Below, one piece after another: positions 3,131 to 62,730 of a DNA stretch of 64,000 nucleotides; position 1 is the first letter of the stretch, and each line of letters starts with the position of its first letter. A program made the translations under genes and the position numbers. Location: contig NZ_BCWB01000017.1 in NCBI RefSeq assembly GCF_001592045.1, positions 62,001 through 126,000 of the forward strand, given 5' to 3'. A model generated the notes under the pieces. The model did not search any database. It was not told where the DNA came from and saw nothing but the letters and a program-made list of their open reading frames with translations. This DNA is from Thermobifida fusca NBRC 14071 = JCM 3263 (lineage in GTDB: Bacteria; Actinomycetota; Actinomycetes; Streptosporangiales; Streptosporangiaceae).

Positions 3131-3574
3131 CTCTGTCCCACCCCACCCCCACATTTATGGACATTTCCTCGTAAAACACACTATTTGACCTGTGGTTTGG
3201 CGAGACACTGGTGATTTCACGGATGCCATCCGGCTCCCCCATGCCGAATAGTGACGTTGCGGTTAAGACACAGAACCGGTTACCGCCGGATCTCCTTACC
3301 GCAACGTTGTGAGCGGCCTACCGCAATGGCTGACCACGACGAGGCAGACCCTCGCCCACCAGTGCCTGCCGCATCGGCCCCCCGCTGCGACGGTCACGCC
3401 CGGCTTCGGACTCTCGGGGACGGCGCCCCGGTGGGCATGGACCGTTCAGTGTCCCCACGGTGAACGGCCCACCATCCCCCGCACATCCGGTCTGCCCCTG
3501 CCGTGGCCAGTGCCGCTCCTCCCTCCGTCCACGGGCGACCCTCCGCTTTCGCCCTTACACGAAGAGGATGTGCA
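3131..3574 (+). promoter_or_regulatory. Upstream region of the first cutinase, with blocks conserved in the second
   Basis: No gene is evident here. Three blocks recur with identical spacing upstream of the second cutinase: an ACACTGG...ACGGATGC block at 3205-3226 (20 of 22 bases shared with 4638-4659), ATAGTG at 3248 (4681) and CTCCTTACC at 3292 (4725). The internal offsets of 43 and 87 bp are the same in both copies, which suggests a shared promoter/operator. I cannot assign confident -35/-10 hexamers; ATAGTG is a possible -10. The 275 bp from 3300 to the start codon would be a long 5' leader and do not look coding. Confidence 0.5.
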
Positions 3575-4480
3575 ATGGCTGTGATGACCCCCCGCCGGGA
3601 GCGCTCTTCCCTGCTCTCCCGAGCTCTGCAAGTGACGGCTGCGGCTGCCACAGCGCTTGTGACCGCGGTCAGCCTGGCCGCCCCCGCTCATGCCGCCAAC
3701 CCCTACGAGCGCGGCCCCAACCCGACCGACGCCCTGCTCGAAGCCAGCAGCGGCCCCTTCTCCGTCAGCGAGGAGAACGTCTCCCGGTTGAGCGCCAGCG
3801 GCTTCGGCGGCGGCACCATCTACTACCCGCGGGAGAACAACACCTACGGTGCGGTGGCGATCTCCCCCGGCTACACCGGCACTGAGGCTTCCATCGCCTG
3901 GCTGGGCGAGCGCATCGCCTCCCACGGCTTCGTCGTCATCACCATCGACACCATCACCACCCTCGACCAGCCGGACAGCCGGGCAGAGCAGCTCAACGCC
4001 GCGCTGAACCACATGATCAACCGGGCGTCCTCCACGGTGCGCAGCCGGATCGACAGCAGCCGACTGGCGGTCATGGGCCACTCCATGGGCGGCGGCGGCA
4101 CCCTGCGTCTGGCCTCCCAGCGTCCCGACCTGAAGGCCGCCATCCCGCTCACCCCGTGGCACCTCAACAAGAACTGGAGCAGCGTCACCGTGCCGACGCT
4201 GATCATCGGGGCCGACCTCGACACGATCGCGCCGGTCGCCACGCACGCGAAACCGTTCTACAACAGCCTGCCGAGCTCCATCAGCAAGGCCTACCTGGAG
4301 CTGGACGGCGCAACCCACTTCGCCCCGAACATCCCCAACAAGATCATCGGCAAGTACAGTGTCGCCTGGCTCAAGCGGTTCGTCGACAACGACACCCGCT
4401 ACACCCAGTTCCTCTGCCCCGGACCGCGCGACGGACTCTTCGGCGAGGTCGAAGAGTACCGCTCCACCTGCCCGTTCTAG
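3575..4480 (+). CDS. cut2: Secreted cutinase / polyester hydrolase (PET-hydrolase family)
   Basis: The 301-residue precursor has a 40-residue signal peptide (twin Arg at 7-8, hydrophobic core, cleavage at [10 protein letters not shown]) and a 261-residue mature alpha/beta hydrolase. In mature numbering the triad is Ser130 (GHSMG), Asp176 (GADLD) and His208 (GATHFA), and Cys241-Cys259 form the C-terminal disulfide. The family hydrolyses cutin, short-chain esters and synthetic polyesters including PET. The mature sequence matches T. fusca TfCut2 as I recall it; cut1/cut2 names are used inconsistently in the literature. The start is the ATG after GAAGAGGATGTGCA, equivalent to the start of the second copy; an in-frame ATG/GTG extension upstream would destroy the signal peptide. 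The paralog follows 560 bp downstream. Confidence 0.97.
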
Positions 4481-4554: not shown

Positions 4555-5039
4555 GTCCCCCCTTTTCATTCGAAAAATGCGACAAACCACCCTTTTTGCC
4601 CCATCGCACCCCCGATACCGAACGAAGTTCGGGTACAACACTGGTGGTTTTACGGATGCATGATCACTGTGACTTGCCCCATAGTGGCAACGCAGTCGAG
4701 ATAAGGAGCGCATAAACCCCAAACCTCCTTACCTCCGCCTGCTGAGCGGCTCGTTGACCGCACGTGGCCGGGCACACCGGCTTCGCCTACCGGTCGCACG
4801 CGCCGTGCCTTCTCCACCCCCGCGGCGGAAAGGCGCGGCGCTCGCGGGCTGGACCGTTCGGACCCCACGCGAACGGCCCGGAACCCATGGCACCCCCGCG
4901 TCCGGGAGGCAAGCGCCGCGTGCCTACCGCCAACGGCGCCGCTCACCTCCAGTGGCGAGGCGGGAGTCCGGGTCCACGTCCATGCATGCCCCCGCATGCG
5001 GCGCGGCCCGGCCCTGCACAGAACCGAAGAGGACGTGCA
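4555..5039 (+). promoter_or_regulatory. Upstream region of the second cutinase
   Basis: No gene is evident in these 485 bp. At 4618-4632 is a perfect inverted repeat, CCGAAC-GAA-GTTCGG, just upstream of the block shared with the first cutinase (4638-4659, ATAGTG at 4681, CTCCTTACC at 4725). The inverted repeat is absent from the first cutinase region, so if it is an operator it is specific to this copy. From 4735 to the start the sequence is GC-rich and unlike the first copy's leader. Confidence 0.5.
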
Positions 5040-5945
5040 ATGGCTGTGATTACCCCCCGCCGGGAGCGCTCTTCCCTGCTCTCCCGGGCACTGCGCTTCA
5101 CCGCCGCGGCTGCCACAGCGCTTGTGACCGCGGTCAGCCTGGCCGCCCCCGCTCATGCCGCCAACCCCTACGAGCGCGGCCCCAACCCGACCGACGCCCT
5201 GCTCGAAGCCCGCAGCGGCCCCTTCTCCGTGAGTGAAGAACGGGCCTCCCGCTTCGGTGCTGACGGTTTCGGCGGCGGCACCATCTACTACCCGCGGGAG
5301 AACAACACCTACGGTGCCGTGGCGATCTCCCCCGGCTACACCGGCACCCAGGCCTCTGTCGCCTGGCTGGGCGAGCGCATCGCCTCCCACGGCTTCGTCG
5401 TCATCACCATCGACACCAACACCACCCTCGACCAGCCGGACAGCCGGGCCCGCCAGCTCAACGCCGCGCTGGACTACATGATCAACGACGCCTCGTCCGC
5501 GGTGCGCAGCCGGATCGACAGCAGCCGACTGGCGGTCATGGGCCACTCCATGGGCGGCGGCGGCAGCCTGCGTCTGGCCTCCCAGCGTCCCGACCTGAAG
5601 GCCGCCATCCCGCTCACCCCGTGGCACCTCAACAAGAACTGGAGCAGTGTGCGGGTTCCCACCCTCATCATCGGTGCTGACCTGGACACCATCGCTCCGG
5701 TCCTCACCCACGCCCGGCCCTTCTACAACAGCCTCCCGACCTCGATCAGCAAGGCCTACCTGGAGCTGGACGGCGCAACCCACTTCGCCCCGAACATCCC
5801 CAACAAGATCATCGGCAAGTACAGCGTCGCCTGGCTCAAGCGGTTCGTCGACAACGACACCCGCTACACCCAGTTCCTCTGCCCCGGACCGCGCGACGGA
5901 CTCTTCGGCGAGGTCGAAGAGTACCGCTCCACCTGCCCCTTCTAG
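5040..5945 (+). CDS. cut1: Secreted cutinase / polyester hydrolase, tandem paralog
   Basis: A 301-residue precursor with the same architecture as its neighbour: 40-residue signal peptide, then a 261-residue mature hydrolase with Ser130 (GHSMG), Asp176, His208 and Cys241/Cys259 all conserved. I count 19 differences from the first mature enzyme (about 93% identity), mostly surface changes such as [10 protein letters not shown] to [10 protein letters not shown] and [10 protein letters not shown] to [10 protein letters not shown]. The ATG follows GAAGAGGACGTGCA, parallel to the other copy. The gene has its own upstream region and terminator, so it is probably a separate transcription unit rather than an operon. 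Expected to act on cutin, suberin-type and synthetic polyesters outside the cell. Confidence 0.97.
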
Positions 5946-6197: not shown

Positions 6198-7880
6198 TCA
6201 TTTCCGTGCCGCTGCGTCCGATGCGGTGTCCTGCTCCTCAACCGGGACAGCGGCATACGGGTGGTGCAGGTCGAAGGCGGGCCGCTCAGAACGGATCCGC
6301 GGCAGCGAGACGAAGTTGTGCCGCGGCGGCGGGCAGGAGGTCGCCCACTCCAGCGAGCAGCCGTAGCCCCACGGGTCGTCCACGGTCACCTTCGGCGCCT
6401 TCTTCGCGGTCACCCAGACGTTCCAGAAGAAGATCAGCGTGGAGATGCCCAAGACGAACGAGGACACCGACGAGATCTGGTTGAGCAGGGTGAACCCGTC
6501 CGACGGCAGGTAGTCGGCGTAGCGGCGCGGCATGCCTTCCGCACCCAGCCAGTGCTGGACGAGGAAGGTGCCGTGGAAGCTGAAGAACAGCGTCCAGAAG
6601 TGCCACTTGGCCAGCGTCTCGTTGAGCATCTTGCCGGTGAGCTTCGGCCACCAGAAGTAGAAGCCCGCGAACATCGCGAACACCACAGTGCCGAACAGCG
6701 TGTAGTGGAAGTGGGCGATCACGAAGTACGAGTCGGTCACGTGGAAGTCCATGGGCGGCGACGCGAGCATGATGCCGGTCAGCCCGCCGAAGAGGAAGGT
6801 GACCATGAAGCCGATGGAGAACAGCATCGGCGACTCGAAGGTGAGCTGGCCGCCCCACATGGTGCCGATCCAGTTGAAGAACTTCACGCCGGTCGGCACC
6901 GCGATGAGGAAGGTCATGAAGGAGAAGAACGGCAGCAGCACCGCGCCGGTGGGGAACATGTGGTGCGCCCACACGGTTCCCGACAGCCCGGCGATCGCGA
7001 TGGTGGCGCCGATCAGGCTCTTGTAGCCGAAGATCGGCTTGCGGCTGAACACCGGGAGGATCTCGGTGACGATGCCGAAGAACGGCAAGGCCAAGATGTA
7101 GACCTCCGGGTGGCCGAAGAACCACAGCAGGTGCTGGTAGAGGATCGGCCCGCCATGCTCGGGGTCGAACACGTGGGTGCCGACGATCCGGTCGGCGAGC
7201 AGGGCGATGAAGGCACCGGTGAGCACGGGGAAGGTGAGCAGGATCAGCACACCGGTCAGCGCCGCGTTCCACGTGAAGATCGGCATGCGGAACATGGTCA
7301 TGCCGGGGGCGCGCATGCACACGACCGTGGTGATGAAGTTGACCGCACCCAGGATCGAGGACAGGCCGGTCAGCGCCAGGCCGAGGATCCACAAGTCGCC
7401 GCCGATGCCGGGGGACCGCACCGCATCCGAGAGCGGCACGTAGGCGAACCAGCCGAAGCTCGCCGCACCGCCGGGCGTGATGAACCCGGCGATCGTGATC
7501 AGCCCGCCGAACAGGTACAGGTAGTACCCGAGCTGGTTGAGGCGGGGGAAAGCCACGTCAGGCGCGCCGATCTGCAGCGGCACGAGCGCGTTCGCAAAAC
7601 CCGCGAACAGCGGGGTCGCGAACAGGAACAGCATGATCGTGCCGTGCATGGTGAACAACTGGTTGTAGGTCTCGTTGTTCATCAGCTGCATGCCCGGGTA
7701 CATCAACTCGGCCCGGATCAGCAGCGCCATGACTCCGGCGAGCAGGAAGAACGCGAACGAGGTGATCAGGTACATGTTCCCGATCACCTTGTGGTCAGTC
7801 GTCGTGATCACGCTGATGATCTTTGAGCCGGGCCGGGCCCGGACCGACGGCTTCGGTGCCGTCGCAACCTGTGTGGCCAC
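6198..7880 (-). CDS. ctaD: Cytochrome c oxidase subunit I (aa3 type)
   Basis: A 560-residue, twelve-helix haem-copper oxidase subunit that reduces O2 at the haem a3-CuB centre and pumps protons. Visible signatures are the first haem His region ([14 protein letters not shown]), the CuB His-Tyr motif [11 protein letters not shown], the His pair in [10 protein letters not shown] and the distal haem ligands in [12 protein letters not shown]. Full length for the family. The start is GTG 7880, preceded by GGGGAGA with about 7-nt spacing. The other ctaC/ctaE genes are not adjacent. A 166-bp regulatory region separates it from a divergent ohrR; the 5' leader holds a perfect hairpin CCCGGCAG-GGCT-CTGCCGGG (7922-7941). 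Confidence 0.97.
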
Positions 7881-7977
7881 GATTCATCTCCCCTTCGGGT
7901 CGCCCGCCTCGTCCCGGGGTGCCCGGCAGGGCTCTGCCGGGACGCGCCACGCTCCAGACAGGCAATGACAGACAAAG

Positions 7978-8025
7978 AATTAACACACAAATAATTTGCG
8001 TCCTAATTACTTGTAGGATGCTACA
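7978..8025. promoter_or_regulatory. AT-rich ctaD/ohrR intergenic region with two inverted repeats (candidate OhrR operators)
   Basis: In a GC-rich genome this stretch is strikingly AT-rich. It has AATTA-9-TAATT at 7978-7996 and TGTAG-GATG-CTACA at 8012-8025. The second overlaps TAGGAT, a possible ohrR -10. The general form (AATT plus GTA/TAC) resembles OhrR boxes of the TACAATT/AATTGTA type, but the match is not exact. Autoregulation is the simplest reading; control of ctaD is possible because the region is shared. Confidence 0.5.
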
Positions 8026-8046
8026 CAGGGTCTGGGGAGGCCCTCA

Positions 8047-8535
8047 GTGGGGGTGAGGATTGTGAACAGCAGCGATTCCAGCCTCGGCGATCCGCTCGCC
8101 CTGGAGAACCAGGTCTGTTTTGCGCTGACCATCGCGGCGCGCAACGTGGTCGCGCTCTACCGTCCGGTGCTGGCCCCCCTGGGCCTGACCCATCCGCAGT
8201 ACCTGGTGATGCTCGCGCTGTGGCAGTACGCCCCCGTGTCGGTCAAGGAGCTGGCCACCCTGCTGGAACTGGACTCCGCAACCCTCTCCCCGCTGCTCAA
8301 ACGCCTGGAAGCAGCGGGGCTGGTGCGCCGGGAGCGCAACCCGGACGACGAACGGCGGCTCATGGTGACACTCACGCCCGCCGGCCGCGAGATGCAGGAG
8401 AAGGCCCGGGACATCCCGGAGCGGATGATGCGCCTGCTGGGCATGGACCCGGAAGAACTCCGCCACCTCAACGCCGTGCTCTCCCGCCTCAATGCGGCCG
8501 CCACGAGCGCCGATCTGACTGACGCCGAGTCTTAA
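8047..8535 (+). CDS. ohrR: MarR-family organic-hydroperoxide sensor (OhrR-type repressor)
   Basis: A 162-residue MarR-family dimeric winged-helix regulator. The N-terminal motif LENQVCFAL with Cys24 corresponds to the reactive Cys of OhrR proteins, and the following LTHPQYLVMLALW, LDSATLSPLLKRLE and RNPDDERRLMVTLT segments are OhrR-like (helix 1 sensor, recognition helix, wing). Oxidation of the Cys by organic peroxides would release DNA. GTG 8047 is chosen because GGGGAGG lies about 6 nt upstream; later in-frame GTGs at 8053 and 8062 remain possible. Unusually, no ohr peroxidase gene is adjacent; the divergent neighbour is ctaD. Confidence 0.8.
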   Translation: MGVRIVNSSDSSLGDPLALENQVCFALTIAARNVVALYRPVLAPLGLTHPQYLVMLALWQYAPVSVKELATLLELDSATLSPLLKRLEAAGLVRRERNPDDERRLMVTLTPAGREMQEKARDIPERMMRLLGMDPEELRHLNAVLSRLNAAATSADLTDAES

Positions 8536-8708
8536 GCCCGCCATCCCCTCTCCCCGGTCTCTTCCTTTCGGCCCACCCGGTGTCTGCGCTGTCCACCCCC
8601 GGGATAACATCCACGCTATCAATTAGTGCACTAACGATTTGGGCACTAAGTCCTTAGTTGGCTGGGTCCTTCGCCCTGCCGGGTAGGGGCCCAATGGGAG
8701 GCGAGAAC

Positions 8709-9086
8709 ATGGCACACCGACGTCCCAACACCGTCACCGCCCCCACACCGATCCCCAAAGGGGTGGTCTTCGGCATCTTCCTCGCGGTCCCCAGCCTCAT
8801 GTACGGCTGGGTGTACTTCGGCCACCTGTGGTGGGCCGTCGCCGCCGGCCTCGTCCTGGTCCTCGGCTTCGGCCTGACCCTGCTCCCCCGCCACCTGCCG
8901 CGGTTCAGCCGCGGCCAGCAGAAAGTAGAGCTGTACGGCGGGCCGCTCGACGGGGAGCACATCGACCTGTCCGCCCTCTCGGTGGAGCGGCTCAGCGAAG
9001 GGATCACCCTGCCGGTCCGCGGCGGCGGCCGCTGCCGGTACGCCCTGGACCGCTCCGGCGTCCTTCGCCACGTCGGCGACGGCTGA
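8709..9086 (+). CDS. Small two-helix membrane protein of unknown function
   Basis: A 125-residue protein with two hydrophobic helices (about residues 18-65, containing VVFGIFLAVPSLMYGWVYFG and WAVAAGLVLVLGFGLTLL). A soluble C-terminal domain follows, opening with VELYGGPLDGEHIDL. The GGPLDG phrase recurs, as I recall, in uncharacterised actinobacterial and phage proteins, but I know no function for it. ATG 8709 is supported by GGGAGG 8 nt upstream. It follows ohrR by about 170 bp on the same strand, with no evidence of cotranscription. Confidence 0.65.
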   Translation: MAHRRPNTVTAPTPIPKGVVFGIFLAVPSLMYGWVYFGHLWWAVAAGLVLVLGFGLTLLPRHLPRFSRGQQKVELYGGPLDGEHIDLSALSVERLSEGITLPVRGGGRCRYALDRSGVLRHVGDG

Positions 9087-61119: not shown

Positions 61120-62730
61120 GTGGCTCGCAACACCGTCACGGGCGCCCGCTCGGGGGCGCCCGCCCCCACATCCCACGTCCGCGGTGAGCCCACGACCTCA
61201 CTGCTCGGACTGGTCGTCAAAATCGGTGCGCTGGGGCTGGCCGCTGCCCTAGCAGTCTGGGCCGCGTTCCCGCTCATCGAAGCGGCCAACTGGGTCGGGG
61301 TCGGCATCGTCGCCGCAGTCACCGCCCTGATCTTCTACGTCTACCTGTCCCCCCGCCACGTCCCGCTGAAATACCTGCTGCCCGGGACGCTGCTGCTCAT
61401 CGCCTTCCAGATCCTGCCGGTGCTGTACACCGTCAGCACCTCGGTCACCAACTTCGGCGACGGGCACCGCGGGGACAAGGAGCAGGCCATCGCCGCGATC
61501 GAGGCCTACTCCGTGGTGCGCACCCCCGACTCCCCCCAGTACACCCTCACCGTCGCCGCCGACGGCGCCCCGGACACCGGCGACCTCGTCTTCCTGCTCA
61601 CCGCGGCCGACGGCACCGTCTACGCCGGCGACGCCGACGGCCTCACCCCCCTCGACCCCGACGACCTCACCCGAGAGGCTTCCGGGAAGATCGTCGACGC
61701 CGAGGGGTACACCGTGCTCACCACCGCCCAGATCAACGAGCGCAGCGACGAGATCGCCGACTTCGCGGTGCCCACCGGCGACGGGACCGGGATCCGCTCC
61801 AGCGGCCTGTCCATGGCCTACGAAGGCCAAGCCACCCGGACCTACCAGGAGGACTGCGACTGCATCGTGGACTCCGTCACCGGGGTGACGTACACCGCCG
61901 ACAACGTCAACGGCTCCTTCGTCTCCGACGACGGGCAGCGGCTCCTCCAAGGCTGGCGGGTCAACGTCGGCTTCGACAACTTCCTCCGGTTCGTGACCGA
62001 CCCGGCCACCGGCGCGTCCTTCCTGTCCATCCTCGCCTGGAACATCGGATTCGCTGCCGGCACCACCCTGCTGGTCTTCGTGGTCGGCCTGGGCCTGGCG
62101 CTGCTCATGCACACCCGCACCCCGCTGCGCGGCCGCACCCTGTACCGGATCCTCTTGGTCCTACCGTACGCCATGCCGTCCTTCGCGATGCTGCTGCTGT
62201 GGCGGGACATGTTCAACACCGACTTCGGGCTGATCAACCGGGTGCTGGGACTGGACGTGAACTGGTTGGGCAACGCGTGGACCGCGCGCGGCTCGATCCT
62301 GCTGGTCAACACCTGGCTCGGCTTCCCCTACATGTTCCTCGTCGCCACGGGAGCCCTCCAGTCCATCCCCCGGGAACTGGAACAAGCAGCCCGAATCGAC
62401 GGCGCGGGCGCCTGGCAGGCGTTCCGCCACGTCACCCTGCCGCTGCTGATGATCGCGATGACCCCCATCCTGGTCTCGACCTTCGCGTTCAACTTCAACA
62501 ACTTCAACGCGATCTGGCTGACCACGGCAGGCGGCCCGTTCAGCCCGGACAACCCGCTGGCCGGAGCCACCGACCTGCTGATCACCTACACCTTCCGGTT
62601 GGCGTTCGGCGGCCAAGGCGCCCAGTACGGGTTCGCCTCAGCGGTCTCCGTGCTGATCTTCCTGATCGTGGCCCTGCTGTCGCTGATCAGCCTCAGACAG
62701 AGCCGTTCCCTGGAGGAGGTGAACCGGTGA
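61120..62730 (+). CDS. malF: Maltodextrin ABC permease MalF
   Basis: A 536-residue permease. It has three N-terminal helices, a soluble extracytoplasmic segment of about 170 residues (roughly 110-280; DCDCIVD contains two Cys) as in MalF, then the permease core with EAA loop LEQAARIDGAGAWQAFRHVTLP. GTG 61120 starts 6 bp after malE. The stop overlaps malG by 4 bp. No MalK-type ATPase follows, so an unlinked (MsiK-like) ATPase probably serves it. Confidence 0.93.
   Translation: MARNTVTGARSGAPAPTSHVRGEPTTSLLGLVVKIGALGLAAALAVWAAFPLIEAANWVGVGIVAAVTALIFYVYLSPRHVPLKYLLPGTLLLIAFQILPVLYTVSTSVTNFGDGHRGDKEQAIAAIEAYSVVRTPDSPQYTLTVAADGAPDTGDLVFLLTAADGTVYAGDADGLTPLDPDDLTREASGKIVDAEGYTVLTTAQINERSDEIADFAVPTGDGTGIRSSGLSMAYEGQATRTYQEDCDCIVDSVTGVTYTADNVNGSFVSDDGQRLLQGWRVNVGFDNFLRFVTDPATGASFLSILAWNIGFAAGTTLLVFVVGLGLALLMHTRTPLRGRTLYRILLVLPYAMPSFAMLLLWRDMFNTDFGLINRVLGLDVNWLGNAWTARGSILLVNTWLGFPYMFLVATGALQSIPRELEQAARIDGAGAWQAFRHVTLPLLMIAMTPILVSTFAFNFNNFNAIWLTTAGGPFSPDNPLAGATDLLITYTFRLAFGGQGAQYGFASAVSVLIFLIVALLSLISLRQSRSLEEVNR

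Follow-up and report, generated by a model that had tools for sequence, protein, structure and literature searches.

A regulator gene divergent from ctaD in a 64,000-nucleotide stretch of the Thermobifida fusca genome (the window) encodes, as judged from its sequence, a member of a separate actinobacterial clade of MarR proteins and not OhrR proper. Sequence comparison shows that the clade is accompanied by a conserved, predicted tandem operator, which in T. fusca occupies two places, the ctaD/marR gap and the region ahead of the next gene, and that this ctaD is an extra copy of the gene for subunit I of the aa3 oxidase. With moderate confidence, we propose that an OhrR-related 1-Cys repressor occupies both operators and that its release by a thiol switch allows the spare subunit I and a membrane protein to be made.

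The window corresponds to positions 62001 to 126000 of contig C17 in a genome of 3.64 Mb (82 contigs; completeness of 100% according to the genome table). An earlier note on this DNA had described a MarR gene with a reactive cysteine (QVCFAL) divergent from ctaD and an AT-rich, palindromic region shared by the two genes, and both descriptions were borne out (Table 1). The G+C content of positions 7970 to 8030 is 36%, compared with a mean of 68.6% for the 61-bp stretches of the window, only 0.1% of which are equally low, and the palindrome is a tandem one. Overlooked at the time was a second, stronger predicted operator ahead of the next gene. Based on comparison with relatives, the regulator probably starts at GTG 8062 and not at 8047. 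For orf 8694, an ATG at 8709, preceded by GGGAGG, is the likelier start. A simple scan of positions 7800 to 8760 found no sigma-70-like promoter. The ctaD leader, which is well conserved in Thermobifida, also contains a strong hairpin.

Table 1. Features of the ctaD/marR locus (positions within the window)
Feature	Positions	Strand	Remarks
ctaD, spare stand-alone aa3 oxidase subunit I, 560 aa	6198..7880	-	NF050116, TIGR02891
8-bp perfect hairpin in the ctaD leader	7922..7941	-	One compensated pair among 4 Thermobifida genomes
Operator 1 (predicted), ctaD/marR gap; two 12-bp palindromes, 15-bp period	7980..8006		16/24 matches
OhrR-like MarR regulator	8062..8535	+	ORF as listed 8047-8535; lone Cys in QVCFAL; THPQY motif
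Operator 2 (predicted), TTAGTGCACTAACGATTTGGGCACTAA, strong tandem palindrome	8623..8649		Ahead of orf 8694
orf 8694, small membrane protein (by eye), no known family	8694..9086	+	Relatives at the equivalent place in 5 other genomes

Across Thermobifida and two Nocardiopsis-type genomes, ctaD, marR and the next gene stay linked, while the cutinase and helicase neighbors vary. Relatives of orf 8694 are weak in the two Nocardiopsis-type genomes (one at 36%, the other recognized by a common motif and by clustering), and both orf 8694 and the one-TM protein found in other genera scored below the cut-off of every family. Near ctaD, the window carries two tandem cutinase/polyester-hydrolase genes (3503 to 4480 and 4764 to 5945) that reached 453.8 and 449 bits against NF051441, below its cut-off of 520; the T. 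cellulosilytica locus (L060) likewise has two cutinase matches.

The regulator chain contains a single cysteine and matches the MarR domain family PF01047 with 63.9 bits, and its best solved relatives are the OhrR proteins of Xanthomonas (2pfb; E 4e-32) and then Bacillus (E 3.6e-30). Against the OhrR equivalog model NF052638 it scored 141.7 bits, below the cut-off of 200, but since the model is named for Vibrio, this is a weak test. The N-terminal cysteine of OhrR is Cys15 in B. subtilis, and work on the Bacillus and Xanthomonas proteins has assigned active-site roles around this cysteine to Tyr19, Tyr29, and Tyr40. To compare these positions, we used 110 clade loci, consisting of the window, 29 loci from a seed-free search and 80 from a peptide-seed search; five of them are the same place in two collections, which leaves 105 distinct loci, and at least four further genomes with close relatives (57 to 60% identity) lie outside the set. 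The comparison set consisted of the 15 of 20 ohr loci that had a usable OhrR-like gene. All 110 clade rows have the Q[VIL]C motif and Tyr29. Position 40 (Bacillus numbering) is His in all 110 and Tyr in all 15 ohr-linked paralogues. Because the peptide seeds include LGLTHPQY and ALENQVCF, which contain the residues in question, His40 and the cysteine occur in the 80 seeded loci partly by choice; in the seed-free set (the window plus L011 to L039), His40 is present in 30 of 30 loci. Position 19 has lost its tyrosine in all 110 clade rows, where it is replaced by A, S, T, or V, and 11 ohr-linked rows have Tyr and 4 have His there, a tally that combines 109 parsed clade rows with L131, read apart, one row per set having failed to parse. 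In the trimmed chains, 100 of the 110 clade rows have one cysteine and 10 have two, and two are found in 9 of the 15 ohr-linked rows.

A tree was built from 123 rows, of which 105 belonged to the clade, 15 to the ohr-linked set and 3 to structure chains; in it, the branch that separates the clade from the other rows has a length of 1.78 and 100/100 support. The ohr-linked rows form two groups in this tree, not one, and the long branches flagged include clade rows L131, L116, L122, and L130. The label “OhrR-type” given to the regulator in the earlier note finds no support if taken strictly: the protein is a redox-type 1-Cys MarR homologue of OhrR, but it belongs to a clade of its own, lacks Tyr19 and Tyr40, and goes with another operator.

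In agreement with the earlier note, no ohr gene adjoins the regulator, and the genome search that had been suggested as a check found none that could be a distant target. A PF02566 profile search of the genome gave one match, an OsmC and not an Ohr (TIGR03562, 172.9 bits, cut-off 85.8; Ohr model TIGR03561, 45.7 bits, cut-off 88.85), and the Ohr model run on the same genome returned this osmC gene alone, under its cut-off. A canonical OhrR with its ohr gene elsewhere was rejected on the strength of this search. Beside the clade regulator, an Ohr query at E ≤ 1e-3 had matches at 0 of the 109 loci searched, the flanks searched measuring about 1.5 kb for 29 of them and at most 5 kb for the other 80; the same query matches 20 of 20 ohr loci. 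In one genome (G071), ohr lies about 5 kb away from the clade gene. The Ohr model scored over its cut-off in 30 of 40 genomes tested: in 20 of the 30 in which the window protein has a close relative, the 10 without it including all four Thermobifida, and in all 10 genomes where the best match was to a more distant paralogue. At 6 of 11 ohr loci from clade-carrying genomes, it is the other paralogue that adjoins ohr, and the fetched flanks of the remaining 5 lack such a MarR gene.

The predicted clade operator consists of two TTAGTGCACTAA-type 12-bp palindromes 15 bp apart. Operator 1 reads TTAACACACAAA TAA TTTGCGTCCTAA and lies in register in all six genomes with this arrangement. Its match in the window's genome is the weakest of the six, with 19 to 22 of 24 in the five relatives, and is outscored by operator 2. 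The motif was derived from the ctaD/marR gap and the gap behind marR in six genomes (six ctaD-linked loci), so that 99 of the 105 distinct loci form a test set not used in motif discovery. At the 15-bp spacing, at least 17 of 24 letters matched in 66 of the 99 test loci, compared with 0 of 1980 dinucleotide shuffles. Lowering the threshold to 16 captured 82 test loci (17 remain below it) and 0.25% of the shuffles, and a threshold of 15 captured 89 and 0.9%, respectively. With other spacings, from 12 to 21, only 1 to 10 test loci reached 17, and 30 permuted palindromes used as a control gave 0 to 8 loci. When discovery and test loci are counted together, 96 of 110 exceed the 99.9th percentile of plain shuffles, and 15 bp is the best spacing in 95 of 110.

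On the ohr-linked set, the clade motif scored 11 to 15 of 24. Several of these paralogues have a box-like ATTGTGCACAANTNAATTGT instead, with 15 to 21 of its 24 fixed letters in all 15. The clade operator does not read as the OhrR box (ACAATTNAATTGT or GCAACTNAATTGC); it has other letters, and it is by these letters, not by OhrR-box scoring of the clade loci, that the two are set apart.

We then considered the distribution of the operator across genomes. When one mismatch at most was allowed, a scan of four Thermobifida and two Nocardiopsis-type genomes identified 18 sites. Twelve of them fall in the ctaD/marR gap or ahead of the next gene, two places conserved in six of six genomes. Reading the pattern backwards in these genomes yielded 1 site. 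The 6 further sites each have one mismatch, none has the TTAG...CTAA letters, and two of them are one site common to G040 and G111, inside a long open frame. A large regulon was rejected at the sensitivity used, given the few sites beyond the two conserved places in the six genomes. A perfect-match scan of 34 more genomes found a GTGCAC-like site in 12 of the 24 that carry the clade, each time at the regulator's own locus, and in 0 of the 10 without it; nine sites of different make-up were found at other places, and six of these share one other type of palindrome. A TTCGTTGACGAA-type tandem palindrome, also with a 15-bp period, was seen in six genomes (L179, L182, L191, L192, and two more sites) and may be bound by some other regulator.

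The window ctaD reached 997.8 bits against NF050116 (cut-off 880) and 695.7 bits against TIGR02891, and in the alignment its metal-ligand and channel motifs GHPEVY, WAHHMF, and HFHYT appear intact by eye. The genome contains three ctaD copies. The copy on contig C15 has genes for subunits II and IV next to it (COX2_TM, 25.8 bits, cut-off 22.8; Cyt_c_ox_IV, 152.5 bits), whereas none adjoin the window ctaD, whose neighbors are marR and the cutinase genes. The ctaC-ctaD-ctaF operon sits elsewhere and has its own ctaD, with which the extra, stand-alone window gene shares 87% identity. The earlier reading of the gene as cytochrome oxidase subunit I is correct as to family, but it concerns a spare. 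In the ctaD tree, the Thermobifida spares group with Thermobifida copies and the Nocardiopsis-type spares with their own operon copies, so they look like two independent duplications beside one regulator, or like one duplication followed by gene conversion. A TusA-like sulfur-carrier gene adjoins the ctaC-ctaD operon, before ctaC, at L009, L166, and L167 (by eye), and the match to the third ctaD of one Thermobifida genome (L176) runs across one in-frame TGA.

Among 26 ctaD copies from 11 genomes, the operator lies within 400 bases upstream of all 6 marR-linked copies (16 to 22 of 24) and of none of the 20 others (10 to 14 of 24). For a ctaD that follows ctaC, these 400 bases are not the promoter of that operon, and at L177, a partial match, they are mostly coding; the whole-genome scans cover 10 of the 11 genomes (G008 lies outside), four of them at zero mismatch only. 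Because the conserved operator is found here and not at the other ctaD copies examined, it is very probable that this redox-type MarR protein acts on the ctaD/marR region. The control of an oxidase gene by this regulator, proposed in the earlier note, is upheld to this extent, but the target would be the spare copy. As operator 1 is weak in the window's genome, some caution is called for: a match of 16 of 24, reached by 0.25% of shuffles, means that ctaD may be held only loosely there, and the site could serve marR autoregulation only.

Judged by its anatomy, thiol-switch control of the spare subunit is well supported. The regulator would bind as a 1-Cys OhrR-related repressor at the paired palindromes, operator 1 covering the divergent ctaD/marR promoter region and operator 2 the region ahead of orf 8694. 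Oxidation or another modification of the N-terminal cysteine would then release the DNA. Because the regulator is without a second cysteine, we propose that this modification probably ends as a mixed disulfide with mycothiol; in B. subtilis, 1-Cys OhrR ends up as a mixed disulfide (PMC11211675). Release from the DNA would lead to more regulator, more spare aa3 subunit I, and more of the small membrane protein, and the spare subunit I would pair with the housekeeping subunits.

In other genera, the partners of the regulator are mostly different. ctaD is its neighbor in 6 of the 105 distinct loci, and oxidase control as a clade-wide theme was rejected, since the neighbors are mostly other genes. 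The one-TM protein was matched in the fetched stretch of 24 of 24 other loci from the seed-free search. A DUF5313-like gene lies near the regulator in 23 of the 110 loci (one member tested: PF17240, E 1.8e-39), and a rhodanese-like gene in 8 of 110 (one Pfam-checked, E 9.5e-29), with the genus Planotetraspora accounting for four of the eight. At L062, L063, L070, L094, and L115, small charged proteins with a GP motif were seen by eye next to the regulator and may be far relatives of each other. As the partners differ elsewhere, control of ctaD seems special to the Thermobifida/Nocardiopsis-type branch.

Several other explanations of the locus have to be weighed. Organic hydroperoxide is the classic OhrR signal, the cysteine and Tyr29 are retained, and the OsmC encoded in the genome could perform Ohr's chemistry; the regulator might thus be a canonical OhrR sensing organic hydroperoxide, with ohr lost and ctaD and orf 8694 substituted under an unchanged sensor. 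We regard this as quite unlikely. The clade stands apart from the ohr-linked OhrR proteins with full support, Tyr40 and Tyr19 have been replaced throughout it while the ohr-linked paralogues keep Tyr40, its operator is unlike the OhrR box, and a true Ohr also occurs in two-thirds (20/30) of the clade-carrying genomes, where at 6 of 11 loci the other paralogue adjoins ohr. It is also rather improbable that ctaD is a bystander, with operator 1 autoregulating marR alone and orf 8694 as the true target through operator 2. The greater strength of operator 2 in the window's genome and the different neighbor in most of the clade speak for this explanation, but the adjacency of ctaD and marR persists with the operator in six of six genomes from two genera whose compared outer flanks differ, and the spares of these genera adjoin the operator even though they look independently derived or gene converted.

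Sulfane sulfur, a small ligand, or something else that is not an oxidant could also be the signal. His40 and the small residue at position 19 alter the expected surroundings of the cysteine, a rhodanese-like gene lies near the regulator in 8 loci, and PMC9495516 and PMC11211675 describe responses of P. aeruginosa OhrR and other MarR proteins to polysulfide. On the other hand, the rhodanese-like gene is present in just 8 of 110 loci, half of them from Planotetraspora, and is not among the genes adjoining the Thermobifida regulator, and we consider a non-oxidant signal unlikely. A still more doubtful, broader idea is that a widespread actinobacterial thiol-switch family keeps the regulator and the 27-bp tandem operator while exchanging the target (spare ctaD, the one-TM protein, DUF5313, rhodanese, and others) and responds to sulfane sulfur or a thiol-reactive species akin to it; when the main oxidase is poisoned, Thermobifida and some Nocardiopsis would bring in the spare subunit I. 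In the literature searched, which includes few subscription papers, we found no description of such a family, nothing joining MarR, ctaD, cytochrome c oxidase, actinobacteria, and repressor, and no match for the 12 operator letters with MarR and actinobacteria.

Our preferred model, in which an OhrR-related 1-Cys repressor controls the spare subunit I, would, if true, provide a direct handle on when the bacterium swaps in a spare subunit of its main oxidase. The OhrR sensor family is split in two by sequence, operator, and neighbors, and many actinobacterial genes taken for OhrR therefore become separable and testable; the short, exact operator lends itself to a simple binding test.

The clade resembles the OhrR proteins of Streptomyces, Xanthomonas, and Bacillus in its homology over most of the chain, the N-terminal cysteine in QxCF, Tyr29, the two boxes per DNA stretch, and the expected autoregulation. 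It differs from them in having His40, A/S/T/V at position 19, a clade of its own, and no adjacent ohr, and its operator is a TTRGTRYACYAA pair in place of the OhrR box. MgrA, SarZ, and AbfR of Staphylococcus are OhrR-related thiol sensors whose main targets are other than ohr. OspR of Pseudomonas is an OhrR-related thiol sensor that likewise has a target other than ohr, namely, gpx, where it uses two cysteines. All four belong to other bacteria and have other operators and targets, and MgrA retains both tyrosines in the alignment. PMC6034001 describes two 13-nt boxes within one 28-nt promoter footprint for OhrR of Streptomyces avermitilis; these boxes resemble the clade operator in layout but have another sequence. 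According to the same source, S. avermitilis OhrR binds and represses at tkt2/ctaB, where ctaB is an oxidase heme gene. This provides a parallel for OhrR-family control of a gene for aa3 oxidase biogenesis, but as described there, S. avermitilis OhrR governs ohr genes and uses the OhrR box, and its target is a heme-pathway gene, not a spare subunit I.
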